From the IMG/VR virus record IMGVR_UViG_3300031565_000159, positions 1-37,207 of that record: DNA of 37,207 nucleotides, one strand, 5' to 3'. This stretch comes from a virus. The notes beneath the pieces were generated by a model. That model saw nothing but the letters and a program-made list of their open reading frames with translations. It did not search any database and was not told the origin of the DNA. This document shows positions 1-37,207 of the stretch, in pieces. The first letter of the stretch is position 1. Every line of letters starts with the position of its first letter. A program made the position numbers and the translations under genes.

Positions 1-134
1 AGATGAGGGGCTTCGTGCCTCCTGAGTACGATCATCAGATCAGGCACTACTTCAGGAGGGGACAGACCATGAGGATCAAGGCGCTGACGGGGTTCTCAGG
101 CCCCGGGGGATCCTTCGCCCCGCAGGGGGAGTAC
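1..134. repeat. Terminal direct repeat, left copy
   Basis: Bases 1-134 match 37074-37207 at 133 of 134 positions; the only difference is G at 127 against A at 37200. The repeat lies inside one reading frame that leaves the window on the right and re-enters here. This is what a circular contig or a terminally redundant, circularly permuted phage genome gives. The single difference may be population variation or an assembly error. Confidence 0.95.
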
Positions 135-221
135 GACGTGCCCAAGGAATCGGGCAGAGAGTGGGTGAGCTCAGGGTTGGCCGTGGAGATACGGCCCAAG
201 AAGGAGGCAAACAGTGGCTAG
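3..221 (+). CDS. C-terminal end of second glycosyltransferase-like protein, continuing from the right edge; contains a small duplicated domain
   Basis: This is the continuation of the gene that starts near 36491. The ATG at 3 is an internal methionine, because the same codons are read in frame at 37076 in the terminal repeat. The last 50 residues (from the ATG at 69) begin MRIKALTGFSGP and form a small domain closely related to the next protein (about 22 of 37 positions identical by eye). AGGAGGGG sits 9 bases before the ATG at 69, so that domain could also be made separately by internal initiation. Either the transferase carries this domain as a fused tail, or a stop codon between two genes has been lost. 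The function of the small domain is unknown. Confidence 0.7.
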   Translation: MRGFVPPEYDHQIRHYFRRGQTMRIKALTGFSGPGGSFAPQGEYDVPKESGREWVSSGLAVEIRPKKEANSG

Positions 222-417
222 GAAGAAGGGTAAGAAAGCGAAGCAAGCGCCGATCGTTATGATCAAGATCAAGGCGCTGACCAGCTTTTCGGGGCCGCAC
301 GGCTCGTTCGCTCGTGACAACGAGTACGACGTGCCCCAGGAGCTGGGCCAGTCGTGGATCGACTGCGGCTTCGCAGAGAAGGCAGGAGATGACCTGTTCG
401 AGGAAGAGGAATCCTAA
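214..417 (+). CDS. Small conserved protein, paralogue of the preceding C-terminal domain
   Basis: 67 residues, GTG start preceded by AAGGAGG at 201-207. The first 15 residues are very basic (MARKKGKKAK). The core from residue 16 (IKIKALTSFSGP, then EYDVP and a GF near the end) repeats the domain encoded at 69-221, and the acidic tail ends EEEES. The start overlaps the previous stop by 8 bases, and its own stop overlaps the next ATG (TAATG). Its place between capsid-modifying genes and the head-tail connector suggests a small virion or neck-associated protein, but no function can be assigned from sequence. Confidence 0.75.
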   Translation: MARKKGKKAKQAPIVMIKIKALTSFSGPHGSFARDNEYDVPQELGQSWIDCGFAEKAGDDLFEEEES

Positions 418-998
418 TGGCCGACTACTGCGTGCTGGCCGATGTCAAGGCCCGGCTGGACATCGGGGCTGACTACGACGCCTGGCTGGCCGGGGTGATC
501 ACGGCTGTGAGCAGGTTCATGGACCGCTACTGTCTACGATCCTTCGCGGCCGCTGCGGAGGACACGAAGTACTTCGACGGCAACGGCGCAACCTCGTTGA
601 TTGTGCCGGACCTCCAGACGGTAAGCGAGTTGATCGTGGAGGACGACACCTGGGCGGCCACCGACTACATCCTGTACCCGTTGAATGACAGCCCGAAGAT
701 GAAGATCGTGGTGGACCCAGACGGGGACTACAGCGTCTTCACCTCGGGACGCTCGAACGTGGAGATCACCGGGGACTGGGGGTATGCAGCCGCTACGCCG
801 GCGGCCACCAACGACCTGGCCGACCTATGGGACGCTTGCGTGGAGCTGACGATCAGGGTGTTCAAGGCAGCGGAGCAGGCGTATCAGGATGCCAGCGCGG
901 CGCCGGAGCTGGGGCAGTTGTTCTACAAGAAGGCCATGACCCCATACATCGCCGAGGTGCTGAACAAGCACAAACGGCGCTTCCACGCTCTCAACTGA
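417..998 (+). CDS. Head-tail connector (adaptor) protein, HK97 gp6/SPP1 gp15-like
   Basis: 193 residues. The N-terminus (YCVLADVKARL, then SRFMDRYC) has the pattern of phage head-tail adaptors, in which a helical bundle docks under the portal ring. The tail end is helical and basic (LNKHKRRFHALN). Length is about twice the smallest gp6 proteins, and the middle part (about residues 55-130) looks beta-rich. It lies after the capsid genes and before the tail-terminator and tail-tube genes, the usual place for this protein. The family call rests on the N-terminal pattern and on order; a different neck protein cannot be excluded. Confidence 0.65.
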   Translation: MADYCVLADVKARLDIGADYDAWLAGVITAVSRFMDRYCLRSFAAAAEDTKYFDGNGATSLIVPDLQTVSELIVEDDTWAATDYILYPLNDSPKMKIVVDPDGDYSVFTSGRSNVEITGDWGYAAATPAATNDLADLWDACVELTIRVFKAAEQAYQDASAAPELGQLFYKKAMTPYIAEVLNKHKRRFHALN

Positions 999-1005
999 GG
1001 TGATG

Positions 1006-1407
1006 ATGGACCTGGACAACGTGATGGCTGCGGTGGTGACCATCGAGGAGGGCGTGAGCGGGATCAAAAAGGTTTTCTCGTCTCCTCCGGAGAGCGTGAA
1101 TACGTTCCCCTCCATCATCAACGTGGAGAAGACGATGGGGAACGACCTGCGGGCGGCGCCGGACGTGTTCCAGCAGGAATACCTGATCAATGTGCTGGTG
1201 CTGGCGAAGCGGGGGGACCTGCCGACGGCGGTGGATGGGCTGAGGGACTACCCGAGGCTGCTGGCCACGGCCTTCGCTGCGGATCACAGCCTGGGAGGCG
1301 AGTGTCTGACCTGCCTGTTTCAGGGGGGATCTCTGAGCAGGATCGAATGGAATAACACACCATACATCGGCTGGGAATGTAGCCTGAGGGTGATAGACGT
1401 GAGGTGA
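1006..1407 (+). CDS. Putative tail terminator / tail completion protein
   Basis: About 133 residues. GAGGTGAT at 997-1004 is a full complement to the 16S rRNA tail and favours the ATG at 1006 over the ATG at 1003 or the GTG at 1000. The protein has no signal or membrane segment and looks like an alpha/beta fold ending in a regular strand pattern (GWECSLRVIDV), as in tail terminators that cap the tube and join it to the head. Support is mainly positional: it lies between the connector and the tail tube gene. It could instead be a head-closure protein. Confidence 0.5.
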   Translation: MDLDNVMAAVVTIEEGVSGIKKVFSSPPESVNTFPSIINVEKTMGNDLRAAPDVFQQEYLINVLVLAKRGDLPTAVDGLRDYPRLLATAFAADHSLGGECLTCLFQGGSLSRIEWNNTPYIGWECSLRVIDVR

Positions 1408-1408
1408 T

Positions 1409-1437
1409 CCTTCGCTGTGCTGACGGCACAGCGAAGG
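1409..1437 (+). other. Perfect 12-bp stem-loop between tail genes
   Basis: CCTTCGCTGTGC (1409-1420) pairs exactly with GCACAGCGAAGG (1426-1437) around a 5-base loop (TGACG). It begins two bases after the upstream stop codon and ends 14 bases before the next start codon, just ahead of its ribosome-binding site. There is no run of T after it, so it is not an ordinary intrinsic terminator. An RNA-processing, mRNA-stability or translational-coupling element is more likely. Confidence 0.75.
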
Positions 1438-1451
1438 ACAAGGGAGGCATC

Positions 1452-1658
1452 ATGGCCAATGTGAAGTTCTACAATGAGGAGATCGAGGAGGGGACCGTTT
1501 CCATCGGCTACGGAGTGTTCCCGGTCAAGGGGCACGTGCTGGAGATCCCGGAGGAAACAGCCGCAGGCTGGGACCCGGGACCGCTGTGGAAGCCGTACCA
1601 GCCGAGGAAACACAGCAAACGACAGGAGGTGACGTCCGATGACAGTAAGACCGAGTAG
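1452..1658 (+). CDS. Small tail-region protein, unknown function
   Basis: 68 residues from the ATG at 1452, which has AGGGAGG at 1441-1447. The frame is open back to a GTG at 1404, but that start would place the 12-bp hairpin inside the gene and has a poorer ribosome site. The protein (MANVKFYNEE, then GYGVFPVKGH) looks like a short beta-rich domain followed by a charged tail rich in K, S, D and E. It overlaps the tail-tube gene start by 20 bases, so the two are probably translationally coupled. The short length and layout loosely recall the small duplicated proteins at 69-417, but similarity is too weak to claim homology. Confidence 0.6.
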   Translation: MANVKFYNEEIEEGTVSIGYGVFPVKGHVLEIPEETAAGWDPGPLWKPYQPRKHSKRQEVTSDDSKTE

Positions 1659-2631
1659 GCTGGGTTACGCACGGTTGGCCAAAGATGGGAGCTGGGGCGT
1701 AATAGCAGAAACGCCGGTCTGGTTCTATTGGCCGACCACGACCAGGGGGCTGAAGTACGAGCTGGCCAAGATGAGTCCAGAGGGCGCGGTGGGAGATTTG
1801 GACCTGGACCAGCAGTCTCTCCTTGGCCGGCAGCATGGCGAGGGCCGGCTGGAGGGGGACCTGTACGCGGATCCGCTGGGCTTGCTGCTCTTGGCGGCGA
1901 TCGGCTCAGAGACTCCGACGGCTGGGGTGGCCGAGGCGCTCACGTACAAGAAGCACACCTATACCTGGGCTGACACGCCTCCGAGCCTGACCATCGAGGA
2001 GTACAAGGGCTTGTACACGGGATCGGCGACGAACGTGGAGCAGTTCCTGGGCATGGGGGTGCAGACTCTGACGCTGGGCTGGGCGCCGGCAGAGGATGAG
2101 TCGATCCTCAGCGTGGGCGCAGCGCTGATCGGGAAGGCGCCGGGGAAGGCGGCCACGGAGGCCTTCACGAAGCCGAGTTACCGGCCTCTCCCCGGCTGGA
2201 AGGGGGAATGCGACCTGGGCGGCGCGGACTTCGAGTGCATCGTCGATTTCGAGTTGAACATCGAGACGGGATGCGTGCTGACCAAGTCTGGCGCCGGCAG
2301 CCAGGATCCACAGGGCATCCTGTTCGGCGGGCGATCGGTGAGGGGCAGCGCGACGTTCCTCTTCGAGGACGACGACGAATACGATGACTGGGTCGCGGAC
2401 ACGACCAGGGAGTGGATCATCGATCTGCAGGGCGTGGACATCGTGGAGACAGTGGCCGAGACGCCGTACTACGAGCGGTTGGTGATCACGCTGTCGGACG
2501 TGAACATCCTGGACCACGAGCCGGACGACTCCGGCGATTTCGTGGTGGCCAAGGTGGATTGGAGGTCGCAGGACGATACGACGAACGGGATCGGGCTGTT
2601 CGAGCTGTACAACGCTGTGGCGAGCTACTAG
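1639..2631 (+). CDS. Major tail tube protein
   Basis: 330 residues, preceded by GACAGGAGGTG. It is acidic, beta-rich and free of membrane segments, with the alternating pattern of tail tube proteins that polymerise around the tape measure. Regions such as RSVRGSATFLFEDDDEYDDW and the C-terminal DVNILDHEPDDSG fit the long beta-sandwich with an insertion typical of large siphovirus tube subunits. It precedes the chaperone pair and the tape measure, which is nearly invariant for tube genes. No catalytic motif is present. The identification combines length, order and composition rather than a single signature. Confidence 0.75.
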   Translation: MTVRPSRLGYARLAKDGSWGVIAETPVWFYWPTTTRGLKYELAKMSPEGAVGDLDLDQQSLLGRQHGEGRLEGDLYADPLGLLLLAAIGSETPTAGVAEALTYKKHTYTWADTPPSLTIEEYKGLYTGSATNVEQFLGMGVQTLTLGWAPAEDESILSVGAALIGKAPGKAATEAFTKPSYRPLPGWKGECDLGGADFECIVDFELNIETGCVLTKSGAGSQDPQGILFGGRSVRGSATFLFEDDDEYDDWVADTTREWIIDLQGVDIVETVAETPYYERLVITLSDVNILDHEPDDSGDFVVAKVDWRSQDDTTNGIGLFELYNAVASY

Positions 2632-2637
2632 TCAATC

Positions 2638-2673
2638 ACCCCTCACCCCAACCCTCTCCCACAAGTGGAGAGG
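2638..2673. repeat. REP-like hairpin, copy A
   Basis: The intergenic sequence CCCCTCACCCCAACCCTCTC continues into a hairpin made of CCTCTCC, CACAAGT and GGAGAGG. Three related copies occur at about 3397-3443, 5760-5819 and 15206-15270, all reading the same way on the + strand. Elements of this type are common between genes in many GC-rich bacteria. Confidence 0.8.
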
Positions 2674-2716
2674 AAGATAAGGGTATGGGAGGGGGAATGC
2701 GCGACAGGAGGAGAAG

Positions 2717-3190
2717 ATGAAGGCGAAGCCGCGGCGAATCGAGCTGGCGGAGTTCGGGATCCCGGGTCTGGAGTGCGAGGGCGAGTGGGTGGAGGTCTTG
2801 CCCAGGACCGCACTCCTGGCCACGGTTGACGAACAGTTCACCGAGTACCAGAGGACGATCAACCGGCTCCAGAGGCAGATGCTGAAGGAGACGGGCGAGG
2901 ATGAGGCGGCGGGGATCCGGGCGGAGCTGGAGGAGGCCTCGGAGCGGTTCGTCGATTTCGTGCTCGAGCAGCAGGTGGTGTCCTGGAATCTCAGTGATGC
3001 GGAAGGCAGCGCTGTGCCTTTGCCCGGGCAGGGCCGGGAATGGAGGGAGCTACTGCCCACAGGGGTGCAACTGAAGCTCTTCGAGTTCCTGAGCGACCTG
3101 ATGTGGGGGGACGAAGAGGTTCAATCCCATGGGAAGGGAGAGGTCCAGGAGGAGAGCCGCGCAAAAAAAGGCGGGAGAAAAAAGCGCTGA
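2717..3190 (+). CDS. Tail assembly chaperone, unshifted product (lambda gpG-like)
   Basis: 157 residues, ATG at 2717 with AGGAGGAG at 2706-2713. Between the tail tube and tape measure, phages encode a chaperone that coats the tape measure during tail assembly. The product is charged and helical in its centre (residues about 35-85), has no membrane segment, and ends in a basic tail AKKGGRKKR. That tail is encoded by two runs of A that form slippery heptamers (see the shifted product). The family assignment rests on position, size and the frameshift site, since these chaperones diverge fast. Confidence 0.8.
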   Translation: MKAKPRRIELAEFGIPGLECEGEWVEVLPRTALLATVDEQFTEYQRTINRLQRQMLKETGEDEAAGIRAELEEASERFVDFVLEQQVVSWNLSDAEGSAVPLPGQGREWRELLPTGVQLKLFEFLSDLMWGDEEVQSHGKGEVQEESRAKKGGRKKR

Positions 3191-3393
3191 TCAGGGCCAT
3201 GCGAGGGAAGGGGGGAAGCGCTCCCTTCAAGGTCATGGCCTTCCGTCTAGCTGAGGGGGACCTGACGCGCTACATAGAGATCATGGAGGGAGCGACCCTG
3301 GGCCGGGTGCTGGAGTTCGTGGAGATGGCGAGCCTGGAGACGACGTTGGGGCCCAGGGGGAAGAGGAAGAAGGGTTTACCGCGCGCTCGGTAA
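2717..3393 (+). CDS. Tail assembly chaperone, -1 frameshifted product (lambda gpGT-like)
   Basis: Two slippery heptamers occur in the correct register near the 3' end of the upstream frame: A AAA AAA at 3163-3169 and A AAA AAG at 3178-3184, the latter just before the TGA at 3188. A -1 shift moves ribosomes into a frame that stays open to the TAA at 3391. It adds about 69 residues, including KVMAFRLAEGDLTRYIEIME. The added sequence has no plausible start of its own. GGGA/TCCC and AGCGCT pairings downstream could form the stimulatory structure. This is the known logic of the lambda G/T pair, and a G:GT ratio set by slippage is expected. Confidence 0.8.
3163..3184 (+). promoter_or_regulatory. 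Programmed -1 ribosomal frameshift site (two candidate heptamers)
   Basis: A AAA AAA (3163-3169) and A AAA AAG (3178-3184) both sit in the zero frame as X XXY YYZ. The second is the most efficient bacterial slippery type and lies one codon before the zero-frame stop. Either or both may be used. Confidence 0.75.
3377..3392 (-). promoter_or_regulatory. Dispersed 16-bp palindrome, copy 1
   Basis: TACCGCGCGCTCGGTA on the + strand is the reverse complement of copies 3 and 4. It overlaps the stop codon of the frameshifted chaperone and extends by one more base pair on each side. See the copies at 15288, 25255 and 36345. Confidence 0.7.
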
Positions 3394-3396
3394 GAT

Positions 3397-3443
3397 CCCT
3401 CACCTACCACTCACCCCAGCCCTCTCCCACAAGGGGAGAGGGG
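3397..3443. repeat. REP-like hairpin, copy B
   Basis: CCCTCTCCC and GGGGAGAGGG form a hairpin with an ACAA loop, preceded by the same C-rich lead (CACTCACCCCAGC) as the other copies. It fills the gap between the chaperone and tape measure genes, immediately after the palindrome at 3377. Confidence 0.8.
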
Positions 3444-3480
3444 GGTTACAGGAGGGGAGAGGGGACCGTAGGAGCAGGAG

Positions 3481-5409
3481 ATGGCGACAGCAGTAGCTGA
3501 ACTGGCGATCAAGATGACGGTGGAGGACGACTCCCAGGCGGGGTTCTCCTCCGTGTCGCGGTCGGTGCAGCGACTGAAGAGCAGCGCCAGCAGCCAGCTG
3601 AGCAGCATCGGACAGGCGGCGACGAGGGTGGGAGCGACCCTGCGAGAAGGGATCAGCAACGGGGCTACGTTCGCGCTGGGTGCGATCGGGGCGATGGCCC
3701 GCGGGATGGGCACGGCGATCAGAGGCGTGATCAACACCGTGTTCTCCCTCAAGACTGCTCTCATTGGACTGGCTACCGGAGCGGCGCTGAAGATGGGCTG
3801 GGACTGGCTGATCGATCCCAACATCCAGCTCGAGAACATGCGAATGACGATCGAGACGCTGGTGGGGGACGCAGAGGCCGCCGGCAAGGCCATCGACTTC
3901 ATCATGAAGGAGGCGCTGCGGCCGGGATTCAAGCCGCAAGAGGTCTACGCAGCGGGGCAGATGCTGGTGCCCTTCGCCAAGGACGCGGAGGGGCGGTTCA
4001 ACCAGGAGATGTTCGAGCAGATGATGAAGACGGCTCAGGTGCTGAAGGCGTCCACGCCAGGCAAGACGCTGGAAGATGCGGCATACGCGCTGAGAGAGGC
4101 GATGTCGGGGGACTGGATCAGCCTTCAGGACCGTTTCAACATCCCTCGCTCCACGATCAACAAGCTGAAGGAAGCCTATGGGGTTGCTCAGGGAGGTTCC
4201 AAGGCCACGGCGGAATCGGTGGAGGATTTGAGGCTGAAGCAGCGTGACCTGCTCTGGGAGATAGAGGAGCTGAGTCTGGCCATGCAGGAGGGCGAGAGAG
4301 TGCAGCTCGGCCGGGTGACATCGGTGACGAAACAGGCGGCGGCCGATCTGAAGCAGCAGCACCGGATGGTGCAGCTCCGGGAGCAACTGGAGAAGGTCAA
4401 CGGGGAACTGGCGGCAGAGGAGGCAGCCTTTGCCGATACTGGGGATAGCGCATCGGAGATGGAGACCAACCTCAGCATCGTCAACGACGCGCTGGATGAG
4501 ATGGGGTATGGGTTCGACCTGGTGGACAAACAGGCAGCCACGACCTCGGGAACGATCGATACTCTGAAAGGGCGCTTCGGCGAACTGATGAGGATCATGG
4601 GAGAGGAAGCGAAGATCAAGATCTCCGAGTCTTTGAATGCTCTGTCGGTATGGGTGGCGGAGCACTGGGACGAGCTGGAGAGCTTCGCCCGACTGGTGGG
4701 AGAGAAGATCGCCACGGGTATCGAGACCATGGCGACCTGGATCGCCACCATCGACTGGGAGGGCGTGGGAAGCTCCCTGAAATCGTGGGGTGAGGGGTTC
4801 GCTGGGGTAGCGACGTTCCTGGGCGAGGTGTTGAGGATCATCAATACCTGGCCGTCCTGGGCGAAGAGCCTGCTGATCGGTGGGGCCCTGGCGCAGGTGA
4901 CGACGGGGCTACCGGGGAACATCTTGAAAGCGGCTGCTTTCACAGCGAAGACGATGTATGTGACATCGGCGGTGACCAACGTGGGCGGTGCAGGCGCAGG
5001 TGGCGCTGGTGGCGTTGGTAAGGTGGGAACGGCCGCCGCGGGGGCGGGATTGGGTCCTGTAGCTTTGATGGTGGCAGGCGCAGCAGCGATGGCAGCCCTG
5101 GCCTATGCGGGTGTGCAGAACTGGCAGACACAGTGGGCAGGCCTTAGTCCTGAAGAGAGATTGGCCAAGAGTGAGGAGCAGGCAAGGCGTGGCCTGGGTG
5201 GTGGCAGGTGGAGGACGGAGGGACTGAAGGATTGGCAGCGCCAGCCCGAGAATGTGAACATCACGGTGGAGCCAGCCAACAACACCTTCCAGTTCGACGG
5301 AACACTATCGTCCACGGAAGAGGCCCGGCTGATGGGGGAATGGGCTGATGCGTTTGATAAGAGCTACGACAACCTGGCTAGGAAGGTCGGGGCGCGGTAC
5401 AAGCGATGA
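3481..5409 (+). CDS. Tape measure protein
   Basis: 642 residues, short for the family and predicting a tail of roughly 95-100 nm if the usual 1.5 angstrom per residue holds. The N-terminal 60 residues are amphipathic, followed by Ala/Gly-rich hydrophobic segments (residues about 68-105). A conserved block follows, with a LENMRMTIETLVGDAEAAGK stretch and a GFKPQEVYAAGQ stretch. A coiled-coil region is at about 240-320. A second hydrophobic Gly/Ala-rich zone (about 500-550) includes GGAGAGGAGGVGKVG. These hydrophobic parts are the usual candidates for membrane insertion during DNA ejection. It follows the chaperone pair, as expected. Confidence 0.9.
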   Translation: MATAVAELAIKMTVEDDSQAGFSSVSRSVQRLKSSASSQLSSIGQAATRVGATLREGISNGATFALGAIGAMARGMGTAIRGVINTVFSLKTALIGLATGAALKMGWDWLIDPNIQLENMRMTIETLVGDAEAAGKAIDFIMKEALRPGFKPQEVYAAGQMLVPFAKDAEGRFNQEMFEQMMKTAQVLKASTPGKTLEDAAYALREAMSGDWISLQDRFNIPRSTINKLKEAYGVAQGGSKATAESVEDLRLKQRDLLWEIEELSLAMQEGERVQLGRVTSVTKQAAADLKQQHRMVQLREQLEKVNGELAAEEAAFADTGDSASEMETNLSIVNDALDEMGYGFDLVDKQAATTSGTIDTLKGRFGELMRIMGEEAKIKISESLNALSVWVAEHWDELESFARLVGEKIATGIETMATWIATIDWEGVGSSLKSWGEGFAGVATFLGEVLRIINTWPSWAKSLLIGGALAQVTTGLPGNILKAAAFTAKTMYVTSAVTNVGGAGAGGAGGVGKVGTAAAGAGLGPVALMVAGAAAMAALAYAGVQNWQTQWAGLSPEERLAKSEEQARRGLGGGRWRTEGLKDWQRQPENVNITVEPANNTFQFDGTLSSTEEARLMGEWADAFDKSYDNLARKVGARYKR

Positions 5410-5756
5410 GTAAGTTCGAGTTCAACGGCAGCTTCTCGAGCCTCCCGGATCCCCAGGAGTACCGGCCGGAGCCCCTGGAAGACGTGGGGAGGGCGGCGAC
5501 CGGGAAACCCATCCAGCAAGGGTATGAGGAAGGGACGTGCTACTGGGAGGTGATCTCGCAGGCGGCTTGGGCGGAGCTCTGGAACCGGTACTATGCGGCG
5601 AAGAATGCGGCTCAGAGTGCGAAGATCCCTCCGAAGACGACGGGCTCTATGGGGACCTACCGATCGGTGACCTGTTGGGGTCACGAGCCACAGGTGGAGC
5701 GGCAGGAGACGATGCTGGTGTATGGGGTGACGTTTCACCTGAGCAAGATTCAGTAA
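5406..5756 (+). CDS. Small tail protein after the tape measure (possible distal tail component)
   Basis: 116 residues. Its ATG overlaps the tape-measure stop (ATGA), implying coupled translation. It begins MSKFEFNGSF and has Trp/Tyr-rich patches (CYWEVISQAAW, ELWNRYYAAKN) and a C-terminal strand ending GVTFHLSKIQ. Position between tape measure and the large hub-like protein suggests a distal tail or tail-tip part. It is shorter than typical distal tail (Dit) proteins, so this is only positional inference. Confidence 0.6.
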   Translation: MSKFEFNGSFSSLPDPQEYRPEPLEDVGRAATGKPIQQGYEEGTCYWEVISQAAWAELWNRYYAAKNAAQSAKIPPKTTGSMGTYRSVTCWGHEPQVERQETMLVYGVTFHLSKIQ

Positions 5757-5759
5757 TGC

Positions 5760-5819
5760 TCCTCACCCCAACCCTCCTTCGACAGGCTCAGGACAGGTCT
5801 CCCACGAGGGGAGAGGGGG
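5760..5819. repeat. REP-like element, copy C, interrupted by a second repeat type
   Basis: CCTCACCCCAACCCTCC starts like copies A and B, then is interrupted by CTTCGACAGGCTCAGGACAG before resuming with TCTCCCACGAGGGGAGAGGG. The inserted motif resembles another dispersed intergenic repeat found in many bacteria. Sequence similarity to either repeat class outside this window could not be searched. Confidence 0.6.
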
Positions 5820-5839
5820 ATGCTGAGGATGGACGATAG

Positions 5840-7321
5840 ATGCCACTGACGTCGGGACAGGAAGAGAAACTGCGGACCAGCCCCCAGAGAATGGAGGTGC
5901 GGTTTGCCTGTTTCCCACAGTTTGGTTTCTTTGCGACTGAAGACGATGGCGGCCCGCTCACCTTTCCTCCGATGGTGCGAATCTGCCCTCGGTACTCCAC
6001 GGTCATCGCCGGCGAGAGCATCGACCTCTATGGGGGGGATTCCTACGATCGCGGCGGCGGCGGGGTGAGCACATGGGCCTGGACCGTGGACGAGGGGTAT
6101 GGGGTCACACTGGACAATGCCAATACCGCTACGGTGACGGTGAACACCTCTGAGGCGTCGGCGGGGTTCGCGGTTCCCCTTACGCTCACTGTGACCGGGG
6201 TAGGTGGGAGCAATTATAGCTATGCCTTCGTGAAGGTGTACGCGAGCGGAAGCTCAGGATTCGATGGCGTGGGCGAGATCAAGAGCTGGCGCGCCTCGGC
6301 CGAGCAGGGCGGCACGGAGGTGGTACTGGAGTGCACCAAAGGTTTCGAACAGACTCCGGGCGTTCCGGAGCTCGCACTCCATAGGGGCATGCTGATCTGG
6401 GCTGAGGACTACTGGGATGGAACGAAGGACACCTTTGGAGGCTACAAATACCCGCAAGGGCTTTTCTACGGCTACGTGAAGGAAAGGCATTTCAAACAGG
6501 ACGGCGATAGGGACATTGCGACCTACACGCTGGAGAGTCCTAGTCTATTTCTCAGGGGGGAGGTGCAGAACACGAGCTGGGCCGAGAGTGCGGCGACGGG
6601 CGTACATTCGGTGGCGGACTTTCGGCCCATCGATGCGCTGTGGCACCTGTTACAGACACACACGAACTTCTGCCAGTACCATGGCGTGGTGTTGTGGTAC
6701 GACCAGAACACGATCTCGAATCTCCAGATCGACAGGGCGGATATGTGGACCATCATCGAGGACGTGGCGGAGAGGACGTTTGGGATAGCTTTCTGCGATA
6801 GGTACGGTGAGCTGAAGGTGGTGCCGCACCAAGTGATCCGGGGGCAGGAATGGTGGGGGACACCGGACCCGATCATGGATTTCGACGAAGGGATGTGCTT
6901 GGAGGTGGAAGTATACCAGCCGCCCGATGACCAATTCCTCAGATACGTTGAATTGTGGGCGCTGACGTCTGACCTGACGGAGATCATGGGCTCCGACGGC
7001 AACAAGGCCTGGGGAGGTCGCTGGCTGACGATCAAAGGATTGATCTGCGACAGCGCGACCACATTGGCTACTTGGGCGGCGAAGGTGAGGGCCTGGAAGA
7101 CCGCTAACTGGGAGTTGACGCTGAAATGCCCGTTGAACCACGTGCTGGACCTGCACGAGCCGGTGACAGTGGATTGTTGGGTCTCCCCTACCCTTTGGCA
7201 CGAGTTTGAGTGGCTTGACAATCGATGCTGGGCAGTGAAGTCGCTGGAGTTCCGGCCCGAGATCGGAACCGGCAAGTGGATGACGAAATACCAGCTATAC
7301 AATACAGGACGTCTTATCTAG
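5840..7321 (+). CDS. Tail hub/baseplate-like protein with an inserted PKD-like domain
   Basis: 493 residues. Residues about 50-135 look like an Ig/PKD-type beta-sandwich (AGESIDLYGGDSYDRGGGG, then WAWTVDEG, then LTLTVTGVGG), a carbohydrate- or protein-binding fold. The remainder has the look of tail hub proteins, including EDVAERTFGIAFCDRYGEL followed by KVVPHQVI, as in gpD/gp27-like proteins where a helix leads into a 'state the constants' strand. It lies between the small tail protein and the fibre. The hub role is inferred; the PKD-like domain may contact the host surface. Confidence 0.6.
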   Translation: MPLTSGQEEKLRTSPQRMEVRFACFPQFGFFATEDDGGPLTFPPMVRICPRYSTVIAGESIDLYGGDSYDRGGGGVSTWAWTVDEGYGVTLDNANTATVTVNTSEASAGFAVPLTLTVTGVGGSNYSYAFVKVYASGSSGFDGVGEIKSWRASAEQGGTEVVLECTKGFEQTPGVPELALHRGMLIWAEDYWDGTKDTFGGYKYPQGLFYGYVKERHFKQDGDRDIATYTLESPSLFLRGEVQNTSWAESAATGVHSVADFRPIDALWHLLQTHTNFCQYHGVVLWYDQNTISNLQIDRADMWTIIEDVAERTFGIAFCDRYGELKVVPHQVIRGQEWWGTPDPIMDFDEGMCLEVEVYQPPDDQFLRYVELWALTSDLTEIMGSDGNKAWGGRWLTIKGLICDSATTLATWAAKVRAWKTANWELTLKCPLNHVLDLHEPVTVDCWVSPTLWHEFEWLDNRCWAVKSLEFRPEIGTGKWMTKYQLYNTGRLI

Positions 7322-16304: not shown

Positions 16305-16473
16305 GATCACACGCCGTCGAAGTATACCCCCATTATAGGTCATTTGATACCGCTTTTGGGCATTCAAACGCCGTGCAAACCTTAAACTTTGCTGGGGTGA
16401 CTTGACAACGGTAACAAGAAACGGTATACTAGTACTGGAAACCGGACGCGACGACTGGACAGGTGTTCTACTG
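16305..16473. promoter_or_regulatory. Divergent early/lysogeny control region with CGGTA boxes
   Basis: This gap separates the repressor from the Cro-like gene. CGGTA boxes occur at 16409-16413 and 16422-16426 on the + strand, 13 bases apart and overlapping the rightward promoter, and at 16348-16352 on the - strand. Leftward, a TATAAT (reverse complement of 16332-16337) lacks a recognisable -35, as expected for an activator-dependent repressor-maintenance promoter. The boxes are candidate operators. Confidence 0.6.
16402..16430 (+). promoter_or_regulatory. Early rightward promoter (sigma-70 type)
   Basis: TTGACA (16402-16407) and TATACT (16425-16430) are separated by 17 bases, close to perfect. 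It reads toward the Cro-like gene and the early operon. The flanks CTTGACAAC and GGTATACT are shared exactly with the late promoter at 28986. Confidence 0.88.
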
Positions 16474-22486: not shown

Positions 22487-22503
22487 GAGGTGCGTAGCGG
22501 GAT

Positions 22504-22575
22504 CGCGGGATAGAGCAGTGGCAGCTCGCCAGGCCCATAACCTGGAGGACGGGGGTTCGAGTCCCCCTCCCGCTA
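22504..22575 (+). tRNA. tRNA-Met (anticodon CAT), initiator-like
   Basis: The cloverleaf folds as follows: acceptor CGCGGGA/TCCCGCT, D stem GAGC/GCTC, anticodon stem CCAGG/CCTGG with loop CCCATAA, T stem GGGGG/CCCCC with loop TTCGAGT, discriminator A. The first acceptor pair is C.T, i.e. unpaired as in bacterial initiator tRNAs. Position 33 is C instead of the near-universal T. The anticodon stem has A-T where initiators have a third G-C. The 3' CCA is not encoded. An isoleucine tRNA with modified CAT cannot be excluded. Confidence 0.9.
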
Positions 22576-22596
22576 TTGGAGGCGATAGGTAGATAG

Positions 22597-24779: not shown

Positions 24780-26431
24780 CACAGAGGATGGAGCTGAAAG
24801 AGGCTGAGATCGTGTTGTCCCGCTGGCAGACCAGGCGGGACGGATACGCTGGCGAGAGCTTCGAGGGGCTGGTGAACTCGATCAAGAGGCACGGCATCAT
24901 CAACCCGCTGGGGGTCTTCGTCAACGAGAACAACGAGTTCGAGCTGGTCTACGGACACCGGCGTCTTATGGCCGCCAGGAAAGCCGGGCGTAAGACGATC
25001 CCGGTGGATGTGATCGGCAGCCTGTCCACGGGAGAGATCCCGACGCAGCTCGACAAGTTCCAGGAGATGGTGCTGGTGGACAACCTGTTCCACGAGGACC
25101 TGACGGCGGTGGAGGTGGCGCGCGGGCTCCAGGACCTCATCGACCAGCAGAACATCACGCAGGAAGAAGCGGCAAAGGTGGTGGGGAAGTCGCAGCAGTG
25201 GGTGAGCGACAAGCTGGCGCTGCTCAAATGCGGGCCCGAGGTGCAGCAGGCCGTTACCGAGCGCGCGGTAGAGGAGACGGTGGCGAAGAAGCTGGCCACG
25301 CTGCCGGAGGACGTGCAAGGGCCGGTTCTGGAGAGGGTGAAGGGGCACACCTCTCGGGAGGCGGGGCCCATCATAGAGCAGATCAAGGAGGCGCTGGAGC
25401 CGGGCTTCTGGGATCTGCCGGAGGATAAGCCCTGGACGGCGGTGCAGATCAACATCAAGGCGATGATCGACCATTGCCTGGAGCAGGTGAGGACGCTGAC
25501 CCCGGACAAGATGGGAGAGGTCCTGGCCAGTCTGCGAGCAAGTGGAAACTTGAAGCCTCCGGACCGGCAGGCCAGCTACTTCATGAGCTACTTCTCCAAG
25601 GCCTGTGGGCTGGGAAGTCAGGGCCTGTTCGAGTGGCAGAAGGTATATGACCGGACGTGCGAGACGTGCCTGTGGGCCGGAGAGGAGCTTCACTGGGAAT
25701 GCAAAGAGGAAGACGCAGAGGCCTGCGACGAATACCTGGGCGAGGACGATCCGGTGCGGTTGCCGGTGCCTTGCGGGGAGACGGACGAGGATTGCCAGGA
25801 GTGCCAGGAGGACCACGGCTGGTGCACCGACGTCTCCTGCTATATCGAGCACGTGAAGAAGGCTCAGCAGGACGCCAGCTCTGCGGTGGATGAGGCTGAC
25901 CTGGAGAGGATCATCGAGGGACAGGACCGACTGCGGAAGTTCTACGATCGGCAGCTCCAGGATGTCGATGGCGATCACTGGCTGGCGCAGGCCTGCGTCT
26001 ATTGCCGCCAGTTCAGGGGCCCGGATCAGCGGGACCAGTGCAATGCGGAGAAGCCGCAATACGTGAGGGTCTCCTTCTGGCAGAGCGATGGGGTGACGGT
26101 GCCCAGGTGCTCGGGGTTCCGGCTGCGAGACCTGAGCAGGATCCCGGAGGTGGACCAGAGCAGGTTCACAGAGATCCTGCTGAACTGGCTGGAGCCGCAG
26201 GCACATAGGATGAACTGGCTATTGCCGAGCGACGAAGAGGAGCTCATCCCGCTGTTGCAGGAGAATGGTCTCAAGTCAAGACAACTGGTAGCGCTTGTGG
26301 GCTATCTGAGCGTGGACCTGAACCCATACGATGCGGCCGGATGCGTGGTACATAGCCCCATCTCGGGAGAGGCAACTACGTGGATGAAGGTGGAGGAGAC
26401 GGAAGAGGCTACGACGCCCGAGAGTGGATAA
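24776..26431 (+). CDS. parB: ParB-type CTPase/DNA-clamp protein with Cys-rich C-terminal region
   Basis: 551 residues from the ATG at 24776 (GGGAGGAAGAG ahead). Residues about 5-110 are the ParB N-domain: GIINPLGVF, the GHRRLMAARKAG box (GERR variant) and DNLFHEDLTAVEVA, the conserved CTP-binding/hinge box. The KorB-like helix-turn-helix follows (TQEEAAKVVGKSQQWVSDKL, about 122-141). The second half is unlike usual ParB and contains about 14 Cys in pairs (CETCLW, CQEC, CVYC), possibly a metal or iron-sulphur domain. No ParA is visible. It may bind the 16-bp palindromes at 3377, 15288, 25255 and 36345; one lies inside this gene. It could act in segregation, packaging or global silencing. Confidence 0.88.
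   Translation: MTQRMELKEAEIVLSRWQTRRDGYAGESFEGLVNSIKRHGIINPLGVFVNENNEFELVYGHRRLMAARKAGRKTIPVDVIGSLSTGEIPTQLDKFQEMVLVDNLFHEDLTAVEVARGLQDLIDQQNITQEEAAKVVGKSQQWVSDKLALLKCGPEVQQAVTERAVEETVAKKLATLPEDVQGPVLERVKGHTSREAGPIIEQIKEALEPGFWDLPEDKPWTAVQINIKAMIDHCLEQVRTLTPDKMGEVLASLRASGNLKPPDRQASYFMSYFSKACGLGSQGLFEWQKVYDRTCETCLWAGEELHWECKEEDAEACDEYLGEDDPVRLPVPCGETDEDCQECQEDHGWCTDVSCYIEHVKKAQQDASSAVDEADLERIIEGQDRLRKFYDRQLQDVDGDHWLAQACVYCRQFRGPDQRDQCNAEKPQYVRVSFWQSDGVTVPRCSGFRLRDLSRIPEVDQSRFTEILLNWLEPQAHRMNWLLPSDEEELIPLLQENGLKSRQLVALVGYLSVDLNPYDAAGCVVHSPISGEATTWMKVEETEEATTPESG
25255..25270 (+). promoter_or_regulatory. Dispersed 16-bp palindrome, copy 3, inside parB
   Basis: TACCGAGCGCGCGGTA lies within the parB coding sequence, just after the helix-turn-helix segment. 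Here it is read as codons for V-T-E-R-A-V-E. In copy 4 the same bases are read in another frame (Y-R-A-R-G-R), so protein conservation does not explain the repeat. Confidence 0.7.
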
Positions 26432-27054
26432 CCACCCTGGAGGCGATGCCTCGGTTCGGATTCAACAACGAGTGGAGCGTGATCAGGGCCTGCCGGCGGG
26501 AGGGGATCGAGGAGAGGCGCGTCACGAACCCTAGTGGCGGGCGGATGTGCCTCTTCAGGCGCAGCGAGGTGGAGGAGCTGCTGGCGGCCAGGGCCCACGA
26601 GGCCTGGCTGAAGGCCCAGGGCATGAAGAGGTGCCCGACGTGCCTGGAATGGAAGGACAAAGCGCTGGAGTTCACGAACAGATGCCATGACTGCAAGCCA
26701 TGTGCGAAGAAGAGGTACAAGCGGGAATGGGCCCGGAAGAAGAAGCAGCGGCAAGGGAGCCGGGCCTTCTGGGAAGCGTGGGGAGGGGATCGCGTCCCGG
26801 GCTCGGTGGATGAGTATGTGGGCAAGGGGGCGCCTCCCAGGGCGGCGGATAGCCTGAAGTATGCCTGTCTGGATGAGGGGTTCTCGCATAGGCCGTGCCT
26901 GCCAGGGGAGAAGCGGAGGCGGTTCTGTGCCAACTGCATGGCGGAGAGCTGCTATCACCATCCAGAGCTCACGCCGGCGCAGGTGAAGGAGATGAAGAGC
27001 GTGCCCGCGGTGTACCCGGAGCATCAAGTGTGGAGCTACGCAGAGGGGAGGTAG
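26380..27054 (+). CDS. Helix-turn-helix plus zinc-ribbon protein
   Basis: 224 residues with a GTG at 26380 that has GGGAGAGG eight bases ahead; an ATG at 26446 would cut into the HTH. Residues about 10-70 resemble an excisionase/MerR-type winged helix (AREWITTLEAMPRFGFNNEW, then GRMCLFRRSEVEELLA). A middle zinc ribbon includes CPTCLEWKD, and a later Cys cluster includes CHDCKPC and CANCMAESC. Its first 52 bases overlap parB. It could be an accessory DNA-binding or Endo VII-like protein; the latter is only a guess. Confidence 0.6.
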   Translation: MDEGGGDGRGYDAREWITTLEAMPRFGFNNEWSVIRACRREGIEERRVTNPSGGRMCLFRRSEVEELLAARAHEAWLKAQGMKRCPTCLEWKDKALEFTNRCHDCKPCAKKRYKREWARKKKQRQGSRAFWEAWGGDRVPGSVDEYVGKGAPPRAADSLKYACLDEGFSHRPCLPGEKRRRFCANCMAESCYHHPELTPAQVKEMKSVPAVYPEHQVWSYAEGR

Positions 27055-28612: not shown

Positions 28613-28779
28613 CATCCTACGAGACGGTAGCGGTGCTGACGGTGATGGCGATGTGGTTCATCGTGCTGATCCTGGTGGCGTCTGAGGCCATACAGGCGAT
28701 CATCAGGGCGTGGAAAGGGGAGGAGACGGTAGTCACCCTTGACGAATCGAGAATCGCGTGGATCGAGCGCAGTGAGTAG
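28609..28779 (+). CDS. Small single-span membrane protein
   Basis: 56 residues, too short for many gene finders. ATG at 28609 overlaps the stop of the RusA-like gene (ATGA), with GAGGAGGAAGG ahead. One membrane helix (VLTVMAMWFIVLILVASEAI, about 9-28) is followed by a charged tail ending IAWIERSE. It may be a membrane accessory such as an exclusion or holin-like factor; no family is recognised. Confidence 0.65.
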   Translation: MTSYETVAVLTVMAMWFIVLILVASEAIQAIIRAWKGEETVVTLDESRIAWIERSE

Positions 28780-28978
28780 AGCCACCGACCTGCTGACAGA
28801 CGATGGCCAGCGTCTCCCTCTGGGGAAGAGGACCGGGGCGGTGATGATGGAGATCTACGCGCTCCGAGAGCGTATAGACAGGACGCAGAAGGGGCAGATC
28901 GAGATCGCCGTCAATTTCAGCAATAGTTCGCTATCCGTCTCGGTGAAAGAGAAGAGAGACCTCAGGAGGATCGAGTGA
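28772..28978 (+). CDS. Small protein before the late promoter, unknown function
   Basis: 68 residues from the GTG at 28772, overlapping the previous stop by eight bases. It reads MSRATDLLTDDGQRLPLGKR and has a beta-strand end (IEIAVNFSNSSLSVSV). It is the last gene of the early operon; its stop lies eight bases before the late promoter. No family is recognised. Confidence 0.55.
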   Translation: MSRATDLLTDDGQRLPLGKRTGAVMMEIYALRERIDRTQKGQIEIAVNFSNSSLSVSVKEKRDLRRIE

Positions 28979-28985
28979 CTGGGGC

Positions 28986-29015
28986 TTGACAACCTACAAC
29001 ATGTTGTGGTATACT
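28986..29015 (+). promoter_or_regulatory. Late promoter with palindromic operator in the spacer
   Basis: TTGACA (28986-28991) and TATACT (29010-29015) are 18 bases apart. The spacer contains the perfect 12-bp palindrome ACAACATGTTGT (28996-29007), a likely regulator-binding site. CTTGACAAC and GGTATACT are shared exactly with the early promoter at 16402. It reads toward the terminase genes. Confidence 0.85.
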
Positions 29016-29021
29016 GTCAGG

Positions 29022-29110
29022 TGACAACTAGATAGGGCTGCGTCGGCAGCCGGAGCGGTTACCGTAGGAAGGGCCGCCGATTTCCCGAAAGGGAGTCGGC
29101 GGCTTTTTGT
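29022..29110 (+). ncRNA. Predicted short transcript or leader of the late operon
   Basis: A transcript from the late promoter would begin near 29022. It contains a hairpin (GGCTG/CAGCC around CGTCGG, near 29036-29051) and ends at the strong terminator at 29073-29110, about 90 bases in all. No reading frame is seen in it. It may be an antitermination leader (compare lambda pR'-tR' or HK022 put RNA) or a small RNA in its own right. Confidence 0.55.
29073..29110 (+). terminator. Strong intrinsic terminator in the late leader
   Basis: GCCGCCGA (29073-29080) pairs with TCGGCGGC (29096-29103). The inner arm TTCCC/GGGAG closes on a GAAA tetraloop, and TTTTTGTTTG follows. It lies between the late promoter and terS, so late transcription must pass it. 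Confidence 0.92.
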
Positions 29111-29131
29111 TTGTCGGGAGTGTAGAGACGG

Positions 29132-29587
29132 ATGGCACAGGGTAGCAGATACACCGACGAAGACATTGAGAGAGGTCTCCAGGCGCTGGTCGAAACCGGT
29201 GGCAATGCGGCTGAGGCATCCAGGCGCACGGAGATCCCAGCGACGACGCTCAGGGGCTGGAAAGCGACGAAATTCCGGGATGAGTTCGTCGAAGTTCGTC
29301 GAGAGAAGCGAAGTTCGTTGATCGACGAAGTTTGGAAAGCGGCTCAGGAAGCGGTCAATGCGCTGAGGATCAAGATCCCCAGGATGGGCGTCAACGACCT
29401 ACTGCGAACTTTCAGCGCGATGTCGGACAAGGGGCTGGCGATCTCCGGCGAGGCGGTGAATCGCTTGGACATCACCAGCGGAGATAGGCCGCTGGAGGGG
29501 ATGAGTGACGAGGAAAAGATCGAGCGGCTGTTCTCAATTGTTGACAAGGCAAGAGCTCGCCGAGATGGCGGGCCTGCTGGCGAGTGA
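29132..29587 (+). CDS. terS: Terminase small subunit
   Basis: 151 residues. Residues 6-50 form a helix-turn-helix (YTDEDIERGLQALVETGGNA, then SRRTEIPATTLRGW) that should recognise the packaging site. A helical central region for ring assembly and a charged C-terminus to contact the large subunit follow. It lies directly upstream of and overlaps terL. It recognises DNA and hands it to the large subunit at the start of packaging. Confidence 0.8.
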   Translation: MAQGSRYTDEDIERGLQALVETGGNAAEASRRTEIPATTLRGWKATKFRDEFVEVRREKRSSLIDEVWKAAQEAVNALRIKIPRMGVNDLLRTFSAMSDKGLAISGEAVNRLDITSGDRPLEGMSDEEKIERLFSIVDKARARRDGGPAGE

Positions 29588-31013
29588 GTCCGTACTTTTC
29601 AAGCTCCAATACCATCATGACCCCCTGGCCTTCGTCCATGACTGCGTGAACTTCGTCGCAGGGGAGCGGCTGGCGGACTACCAGGAAGAGATCTTGGAGG
29701 AGCTGGTCCCGCGGAAGAGGATCGCTGTCAGAGGGCCACACGGGCTTGGCAAAACGGCGTTGGCGGCCTGGATCGTTCTCTGGGCGGTGTTGACGGCAGA
29801 GGACGTCAAGGTTCCCACGACAGCCTCAGCCTGGCGGCAGGTGACCAAGTTCCTGTGGCCTGAGATCCACAAATGGACGGCGCGGCTCGATTGGAAGCTG
29901 ATCGGCAGAGACCCGTTTAACAGGGAAGAGCTGCTGACGCTCTCGCTGAAGCTGGGGCCCACCAGAGAGGCCTTCGGGGTGGTCTCGGACAATGAGGCAC
30001 TCATCGAAGGGGCCCATGCAAAACGGGTGGTCTACGTCTTCGACGAGGCAAAGGAGATCCCGAACAAGACATGGGATGCGGCGGAAGGGGCGTTCGCAGG
30101 GGCCGGAGCGGATACGCCTGCAGAGGCGTTCGCGTTAGCCATTTCCACGCCGGGAGAACCAGGGGGAAGGTTCTATGACATCCATTCGCGGAAGCCGGGG
30201 TACGAGGACTGGTGGCCCAGGCACGTCAAGCTGGAGGAAGCGATCGCGGCCGGCCGAATCTCAAGAGAGTGGGCGGAGGCCCGAGCGAGACAATGGGGAG
30301 AGACCTCGGCGGTCTACCTCAATCGGGTCAAGGGAGAGTTCGCCACCTCGGAGGAGAGCGGCATCATCTCCCTGGCGTGGGTGGAGGCAGCCAACGAGCG
30401 GTGGAGAGAATGGAACGACGCCGGCCGCCCGATGTGCCACGAAGAGGATGGTTCCCTGAAGCCCATGGACGCGGTGGGGGTGGACGTGGCCAGATCCGGT
30501 GAGGACCAGACGGTGATGGCCGTGCGGTACGGAAGGATCATCACCAAGATCGAGGCTCACTCCAAGGAAGAGACGATGCAGACCACGGGCCGCGTGGCGG
30601 GGATACTGAAGGCGCATGGAGGCAAGGCCATCGTCGACGTGATAGGGATCGGCGCAGGGGTCTACGACCGGCTGAGAGAGCAAGGCTACAAGGCCACCCC
30701 ATTCAACGCAGCAGCCGGGTCGAGGGTGACGGATCAGAGCGGGCAATGGGGATTCGTGAATAAACGGGCGGAAGCGTGGTGGTCGTTGAGGGAGATGCTG
30801 AGCGATCCGGAGAGCCAGATCATGCTTCCACCGGATGACAAACTGACGGGAGATCTCACGGCGCCGACGTGGAAGGCAACGAGCGGCGGCAAGATCAAGG
30901 TGGAAGCGAAGGACGACATCAAGAAACGTATCGGCCGCAGCACCGACTATGGGGATGCGGTGGTGCAAGCGTTCTGGGTCGGCCGCGGCGGGCCCCTGGT
31001 GGCTATGGTGTGA
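29505..31013 (+). CDS. terL: Terminase large subunit
   Basis: 502 residues. The GTG at 29505 has GGAGGGG at 29494-29500; an ATG at 29565 is an alternative. Walker A RGPHGLGKT (about 76-84) and Walker B VVYVFDEAKEI (about 174-184) give the packaging ATPase. The RNase-H-like nuclease has GVDVARSGEDQT (about 325) and DYGDAVVQAF near the end. It drives DNA into the prohead and cuts concatemers. It overlaps terS by 83 bases. Confidence 0.95.
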   Translation: MTRKRSSGCSQLLTRQELAEMAGLLASESVLFKLQYHHDPLAFVHDCVNFVAGERLADYQEEILEELVPRKRIAVRGPHGLGKTALAAWIVLWAVLTAEDVKVPTTASAWRQVTKFLWPEIHKWTARLDWKLIGRDPFNREELLTLSLKLGPTREAFGVVSDNEALIEGAHAKRVVYVFDEAKEIPNKTWDAAEGAFAGAGADTPAEAFALAISTPGEPGGRFYDIHSRKPGYEDWWPRHVKLEEAIAAGRISREWAEARARQWGETSAVYLNRVKGEFATSEESGIISLAWVEAANERWREWNDAGRPMCHEEDGSLKPMDAVGVDVARSGEDQTVMAVRYGRIITKIEAHSKEETMQTTGRVAGILKAHGGKAIVDVIGIGAGVYDRLREQGYKATPFNAAAGSRVTDQSGQWGFVNKRAEAWWSLREMLSDPESQIMLPPDDKLTGDLTAPTWKATSGGKIKVEAKDDIKKRIGRSTDYGDAVVQAFWVGRGGPLVAMV

Positions 31014-36503: not shown

Positions 36504-37207
36504 ATACGGTGATGGTCTTCTGCCCGACGTGGCGGCTGGAGCCGGAGACGCTGTGGGCGATCTTCGCCCTGGAGTTCGATTGTCCCAGGGAATACGTATT
36601 CACCCACGACAATCTCTCAGTGAGGGATGTTGACAACATAAACTGGAACTACCGGAAGGGGAGGCAGATGTTCCTGGCGGGGGACTATACGCACCTGATG
36701 ACCGTGGAGTCCGACATCACTCCGCCGCCTGATGCCTGGAAGAAGCTGAGGGCGCTGGATGTGGACGTGGCGTTGGGATCCTATAGGTTCAGGGAAAAGC
36801 ACACCGGTTTCAGCGCCAACAACCTGATGGGGCATAACGGAGATGGGCCCGGGCCAGTGACAGGAGTGGGCCTGGGCTGTATGGTAGCCAGGAGGGCGGT
36901 GCTGGAGCAGATCAACTTTCGGGCCCACGAGAAGCTGCCCTGCGATACCCCCTTTGCGGAGGACGTGCTGGCGGCGGGCTTCGAGATGTGGGGCGATCCG
37001 GGCATAGCCTGCGGGCACAAGGACGAGGACGGGGAGATCGTCTGGCCGGAGAGTGAACCGGCCTGGTTCAAGAAGATGAGGGGCTTCGTGCCTCCTGAGT
37101 ACGATCATCAGATCAGGCACTACTTCAGGAGGGGACAGACCATGAGGATCAAGGCGCTGACGGGGTTCTCAGGCCCCGGGGGATCCTTCGCCCCGCAGGA
37201 GGAGTAC
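36491..37207 (+). CDS. Glycosyltransferase-like protein 2, runs off the right edge (continues at position 3)
   Basis: About 239 residues are visible here, and 50 or more further residues follow at the left end. The GTG at 36491 overlaps the preceding gene by 13 bases; the ATG at 36512 is an alternative. VMVFCPTWRLEPETLW is the first strand and helix. HLMTVESDITPPPDAW is a DxD-like site (E-S-D), and GPVTGVGLGCMVARRAVLE resembles the acceptor loop of GT-A enzymes. It follows another glycosyltransferase-like gene in the head operon. The C-terminus carries the small MRIKALTGFSGP domain; see the entry at position 3. Confidence 0.65.
   Translation, partial: MERLDTVMVFCPTWRLEPETLWAIFALEFDCPREYVFTHDNLSVRDVDNINWNYRKGRQMFLAGDYTHLMTVESDITPPPDAWKKLRALDVDVALGSYRFREKHTGFSANNLMGHNGDGPGPVTGVGLGCMVARRAVLEQINFRAHEKLPCDTPFAEDVLAAGFEMWGDPGIACGHKDEDGEIVWPESEPAWFKKMRGFVPPEYDHQIRHYFRRGQTMRIKALTGFSGPGGSFAPQEEY
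37074..37207. repeat. Terminal direct repeat, right copy
   Basis: Matches 1-134 with one mismatch (A at 37200 against G at 127). See the left copy. Confidence 0.95.

Follow-up and report, generated by a model that had tools for sequence, protein, structure and literature searches.

The window, the complete 37,207-nt stretch of viral DNA analysed here, carries a strong promoter, a short leader and an intrinsic terminator directly ahead of its late genes, which raises the question of how transcription of those genes is switched on. To our knowledge, late-gene switching in uncultured temperate phages is mostly obscure because known antiterminators lack a common sequence. The arrangement was examined in relation to its genomic setting, its conservation in related phages and the systems it resembles, and it can be read as probably being an antitermination gate of the late operon comparable to pR'-tR' of phage lambda.

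The element lies at the boundary between early and late genes, the position which an earlier note on this DNA had given it. Genes located before 28978 include those for a repressor, a serine integrase, a cro-like protein, SbcC/SbcD-like proteins, a Gp3-like directionality factor, ParB and MmcB-like and RusA-like proteins. A tRNA-Met gene (anticodon CAT, 22503-22576) is also found inside the early operon. The late genes begin at 29132 with terS (29132..29587, + strand), named from weak terminase-small-subunit matches and its position before terL, and continue with terL (29565..31013, + strand; phrog_2, E 1e-31), the portal and other late genes. The names SbcC/SbcD, portal and capsid are candidate assignments from reading of the sequences and gene order. 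The end of the record (37074-37207) repeats its start (1-134) almost exactly, with an offset of two bases and about one mismatch by eye, so that the record looks permuted or circular, though it is classed as linear. Contig G001 (18,324 bp) runs from window position 25099 through the end into 1-6349 and is identical in the overlap. Given this continuity, seen in both the repeat and G001, the late genes form one run of approximately 21 kb on the + strand behind the gate, from 29132 to the record end and then through the start to about 13 kb.

The late promoter (28986..29015, + strand) possesses the -35 hexamer TTGACA (28986-28991), an 18-nt spacer and the -10 hexamer TATACT (29010-29015), as the earlier note had described, and the -10 has a TGn extension. 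It scores 11/12 in a scan for sigma-70-type promoters, and only one other promoter of this score was identified in the genome, namely the early promoter pR (16402..16430, + strand, 11/12) beside the divergent repressor gene. Each of the two heads an operon, and just 0.07 promoters of at least 11/12 are expected per shuffled window, both strands counted. Promoter pR is kept in the three relatives described below (L168, L169, L170) as TTGACAAC..., with a 17-nt spacer as against the 18 nt of the late promoter. The intrinsic terminator (29068..29112, + strand) consists of a stem (29073-29085/29091-29103) and a T-run TTTTTGTTT (to 29108-29112). At -24.5 kcal/mol its hairpin is the best among the T5-tailed hairpins of the window, while in 40 shuffled windows the best such hairpin averaged -7.9 kcal/mol and never went below -19.9; the 41-nt terminator fold has a z of -6.3. 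A simple terminator scan omitted it, probably due to its bulged stem and the stem-length rule of the scan. As the shuffled-window counts and hairpin energies fall short of those found, promoter and terminator are beyond chance, and the feature pointed out earlier is real. RNA from this promoter would start near 29022 and measure about 87 nt, close to the 90 or so claimed for a short transcript ending in a GC-rich hairpin and T-run before terS; the gap from terminator to the terS ATG (29132) is about 19-24 bases.

The same promoter-leader-terminator unit precedes terS in three relatives, G002, G005 and G003, with G005 having a small ORF between gate and terS. The route to these led from a small upstream gene, p69 (discussed below), to G002, from the pattern of two leaders to G005 (L124) and from the next pattern to G003 (L135). 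As the pattern searches demand exact matches, further gate members likely exist; BLAST of the leader against phages and plasmids gave chance matches only. The promoter hexamers and 18-nt spacer length are the same in all four phages. TTGTGG beside the -10 and TGACAAC just past it are invariant or nearly so, and the spacer apart from TTGTGG is variable. The leader of 52 nt (TGACAACTA..GTTACCGTAGGAAGGG, 29022..29073, + strand), defined by four-phage identity and also matched by model R1, shows 81-94% identity among the four and is thus conserved at nucleotide level in related phages. For comparison, identity is 61-78% in the spacer, 59-84% in the p69 gene and, for the window against G002 and G005, 57-59% in terS and 56-59% in rusA. 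Judged by these alignments, the leader is better conserved than the neighbouring genes and the spacer. The bases past the terminator are not conserved (38% identity, window versus G002). The terminator arms diverge, with identity down to 62%, and folding is retained, at -22 to -29 kcal/mol in the window, G002 and G005, and G003 has a comparable hairpin. The pairing register of G002 is shifted, and a column-wise count gives one double change only; covariation statistics are weak because of this shift and because they draw on four sequences.

The early genes are mostly common to the four phages (35-88% protein identity). Their heads and tails, by contrast, diverge widely, with the window and G002 on the one hand and G005 and G003 on the other, and the gate sits at the exact seam between the shared early half and the swapped head and tail modules. 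Relatives of the window's TerL (46-62% identity) were also considered as a source of leaders; the leader is absent from all of these, as TerL is swapped. The window's TerL (29565-31013) differs from that of G002 (L115 1889-3223), though portal, protease and capsid are 71-76% identical; the G003 TerL is 82% identical to the window's, yet the head is different.

The leader has a hairpin of its own, GGCTGC-GTCG-GCAGCC (29036..29051, + strand), as had been claimed, and both the fold and the four-phage comparison identify it. Its stem is invariant in all four phages, with the loops GUCG, AUCG, UUCG and GAGA, and it is flanked by two conserved single-stranded segments. The linker GTTACCGTAGGAAGGG (29058..29073, + strand) is invariant except for one base in G005 and pairs at its 3' end with the terminator T-run. 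An outer stem GGUGAC/GUUACC, present in the window fold, is weakened or lost in the relatives. That the loop changes while the stem is invariant suggests that the leader works as RNA; no compensatory change in the stem was seen among the four phages, and a search of Rfam 15 gave no family match above gathering score. The leader could act alone, together with a protein or as a small RNA.

From the promoter, conserved leader, terminator, position and conservation, we infer default termination, read-through and their timing as follows. Host polymerase would initiate from the strong promoter (28986) and stop by default about 87 nt on, so that the late genes would be off and only the short leader RNA made. 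Late in infection, an early phage protein would load onto polymerase at the promoter/leader element, and the loaded polymerase would ignore the terminator, turning on all late genes. The likeliest factor would be p69, with a winged-helix/zinc protein (26401-27054) or the product of a different early gene next in line.

This layout of strong promoter, short leader and intrinsic terminator with all late genes behind it is that of the Q-dependent pR'-tR' regions of lambda and phage 21, both of which display default termination and then read-through once the factor is present (for phage 21, PMC6606751). As with Q in lambda, the candidate factor gene lies directly upstream of the promoter, and as in lambda pR' a TGAC (-35-like) motif lies right past the -10. 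Unlike lambda and phage 21, there is here no Q-family protein and no strict -10-like pause element (NANNAT was not seen in 29016-29037 by inspection; weaker forms are possible), and the leader is much shorter and conserved at sequence level. Family profiles for Q (PF03589, PF06530) found no match in the four phage genomes (G000, G002, G003, G005), nor was a match to the ArpU family (TIGR01637) found, in keeping with the earlier statement that no Q-like gene is recognisable. The reading given in that note is supported as regards the pR'-tR'-like layout, the boundary position, the lack of a recognisable Q and the conserved leader; a role of the spacer palindrome and classical RNA pairing are not supported. 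AlpA of Pseudomonas aeruginosa is a factor without Q homology acting at alpB, where the terminator begins tens of bases past the promoter and is passed once the factor is present, and the promoter-terminator layout is the same as that of the gate (PMC7969949). However, the AlpA element is in the -35/-10 spacer, whereas here the spacer mostly varies and the leader is conserved.

The first candidate for the factor is p69 (28772..28978, + strand), a protein of 68 aa (69 codons counting the stop) present in all four leader-bearing phages; lambda Q, by comparison, has 207 codons (624-nt gene). That its gene lies upstream of the leader and travels with it had been missed earlier. It adjoins the leader in three of the four phages; in G003 several inserted genes separate the two, and p69 lies 2 kb upstream of the leader. 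The inserted small genes of G003 (L135 1-2053, approximately 2 kb between p69 and gate) include two similar copies of a SRRGF(I/M)GF-type protein (529-951 and 1367-1807). An 81-aa ORF beside the G003 leader was not supported as a p69 relative, the true relative being that 2 kb upstream, and L043 was rejected as an additional carrier, with marginal similarity and no leader. Between the window and G002, the p69 gene differs at 8, 2 and 23 sites by codon position over the 69 codons, and as the changes are mostly in the third position the gene codes for a real protein. AlphaFold2 modelled p69 with middling confidence (pLDDT 72), and the model gave no significant fold match, the weak ones including several AbrB/MazE-like DNA-binding folds; there was also no sequence match to any solved structure. 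The association of p69 with the leader is suggestive. It is one of several early genes common to the four phages, and the search outside leader-bearing phages was limited, so the association is not exclusive.

As a candidate, p69 is favoured by its place, as with lambda Q, by its travel with the leader and by the precedent of a 7-kDa antiterminator. This precedent is p7 of Xanthomonas phage Xp10, with which host polymerase passes intrinsic terminators before the late genes (PMC4513864, PMC6624301); it is likewise a small phage protein (PMC4513864). However, p69 matches no solved structure by sequence, p7 included, and the portions cited record no leader element comparable to that found here (PMC4513864, PMC6624301). 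Provided that the gate is real, p69 may tentatively be put forward as its antitermination factor. The second candidate is a protein with a winged helix and a CxxC zinc motif (26401..27054, + strand), kept at 35-45% in three relatives; its N-terminal model is confident, and searches by solved structure and by fold gave no significant match.

A more far-reaching and rather unlikely proposal is that of a new late antitermination system, in which p69 (~7-8 kDa, no known relatives) would recognise TGACAAC, the hairpin and GTTACCGTAGGAAGGG, either as nascent RNA or as DNA, and carry polymerase past the terminator. If true, the module would move among phages differing in heads and tails. The gate is marked by a short RNA element from sequence alone, which is searchable by covariance model, and this leader element directs attention to one particular small protein, the candidate factor. 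Late control modules may therefore be findable through leader conservation instead of protein homology.

A probable fifth and divergent copy of the gate is located on L137 (10.8 kb). The pattern GTTACCGNAGGAAGGG added 31 loci, of which only L135 and L137 had a flanking hairpin and terminator, and the remaining loci were rejected as members for want of these. L137 has the promoter TTGACT-N18-TATAGT and a p69-like ORF, followed by a hairpin of other sequence, GTTACCGTAGGAAGGG, a terminator that is again strong, and late genes. Since the search was made with the 16-mer, this is not independent evidence; the assignment draws on the hairpin, terminator, small gene and place. Among 212 ORFs, the one of 62 aa is the best match to p69 (E = 0.046), which it resembles in the C-terminal half; permutation gave p < 0.001 when it was compared with the G005 protein and 0.05 with window p69. 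No clear homology was found to the window's other proteins, with only a short RusA stretch reaching E = 4e-4 and the rest at chance level. The TerS of L137 is unrelated and over 700 bases from the gate element.

Other explanations of the unit were weighed against the gate. It could be a small-RNA gene with a trans-acting product such as StxS, the terminator being its 3' end and the late genes being driven otherwise. The strong promoter and terminator do bound an RNA of about 87 nt with an invariant single-stranded GTTACCG, and in Stx phages the pR'-tR' region gives rise to StxS as a by-product of antitermination (PMC7873438). Here, unlike StxS, no trans target is evident in a complement search within the window, where the linker complement is absent elsewhere with up to 3 mismatches; there is no second strong promoter ahead of the late genes, and the unit always stands before late genes. 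The reading is thus improbable, although a small-RNA role would be compatible with that of a gate. The odds are similarly low, if anything slimmer, that the leader RNA itself modifies polymerase with no phage protein, as the put RNAs of HK022 do without a dedicated protein (PMC9378689). Like put, the leader is an RNA element near the promoter which, when nascent, could modify polymerase itself (PMC9378689), and its nucleotide-level conservation and a hairpin between two conserved single-stranded segments agree with this. However, put has two stem-loops in about 70 nt and acts in early operons (PMC9378689), whereas in the window a single conserved leader hairpin precedes the terminator, in a late operon; the travelling p69 gene would go unexplained, and an RNA acting alone would keep the gate always open, lysogen included.

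It is quite unlikely that the terminator serves merely to shield the late genes from early read-through, these being transcribed from another type of promoter. The promoter scan was of sigma-70 type, which leaves room for such a promoter, but a perfect promoter before the terminator and a conserved leader would lack purpose, and the 19-24 bases from terminator to terS are not conserved between the window and G002. A packaging site (cos/pac) recognised by TerS is very unlikely: the conserved DNA is directly upstream of terS and the N-terminal part of TerS is kept at 53-58% in relatives, but promoter hexamers of constant 18-nt spacing and a fold-retaining terminator are not packaging features, and L137 retains the element with its unrelated and distant TerS. 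An attenuator or riboswitch, in which GUCGGCAGCC of the leader would pair with the terminator's 5' arm and not within its own hairpin, can be set aside as most improbable, since the repeat GTCGGCAGC/GTCGGCGGC permits this pairing in the window but the leader hairpin is folded in every growing transcript computed, inspection shows that G002, in which the arm differs, has lost the pairing, and neither a leader peptide bearing a start signal nor an Rfam family was seen. In its classical form of alternative pairing, the suggested RNA-based antitermination is unsupported.

Within the spacer of the late promoter lies a 12-bp palindrome, ACAACATGTTGT (28996..29007), to which no role is assigned. It had been pointed out in the earlier note and is exact, and the chance of a 12-bp palindrome inside an 18-nt stretch is about 0.003. 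In the spacers of G002, G005 and G003 the longest palindrome is at most 4 bp, and a role is unsupported given this absence from the three relatives; as it is not conserved, the palindrome was rejected as an operator. A scan for ACAACATGTTGTNNTATA gave a near-identical contig as its sole related match. By eye, a further copy of ACAACATGTTGT lies on L098 (3507-3524) between TTGACT and a TATACA-like box, where it directly precedes an ORF resembling the YefM/Phd antitoxin.
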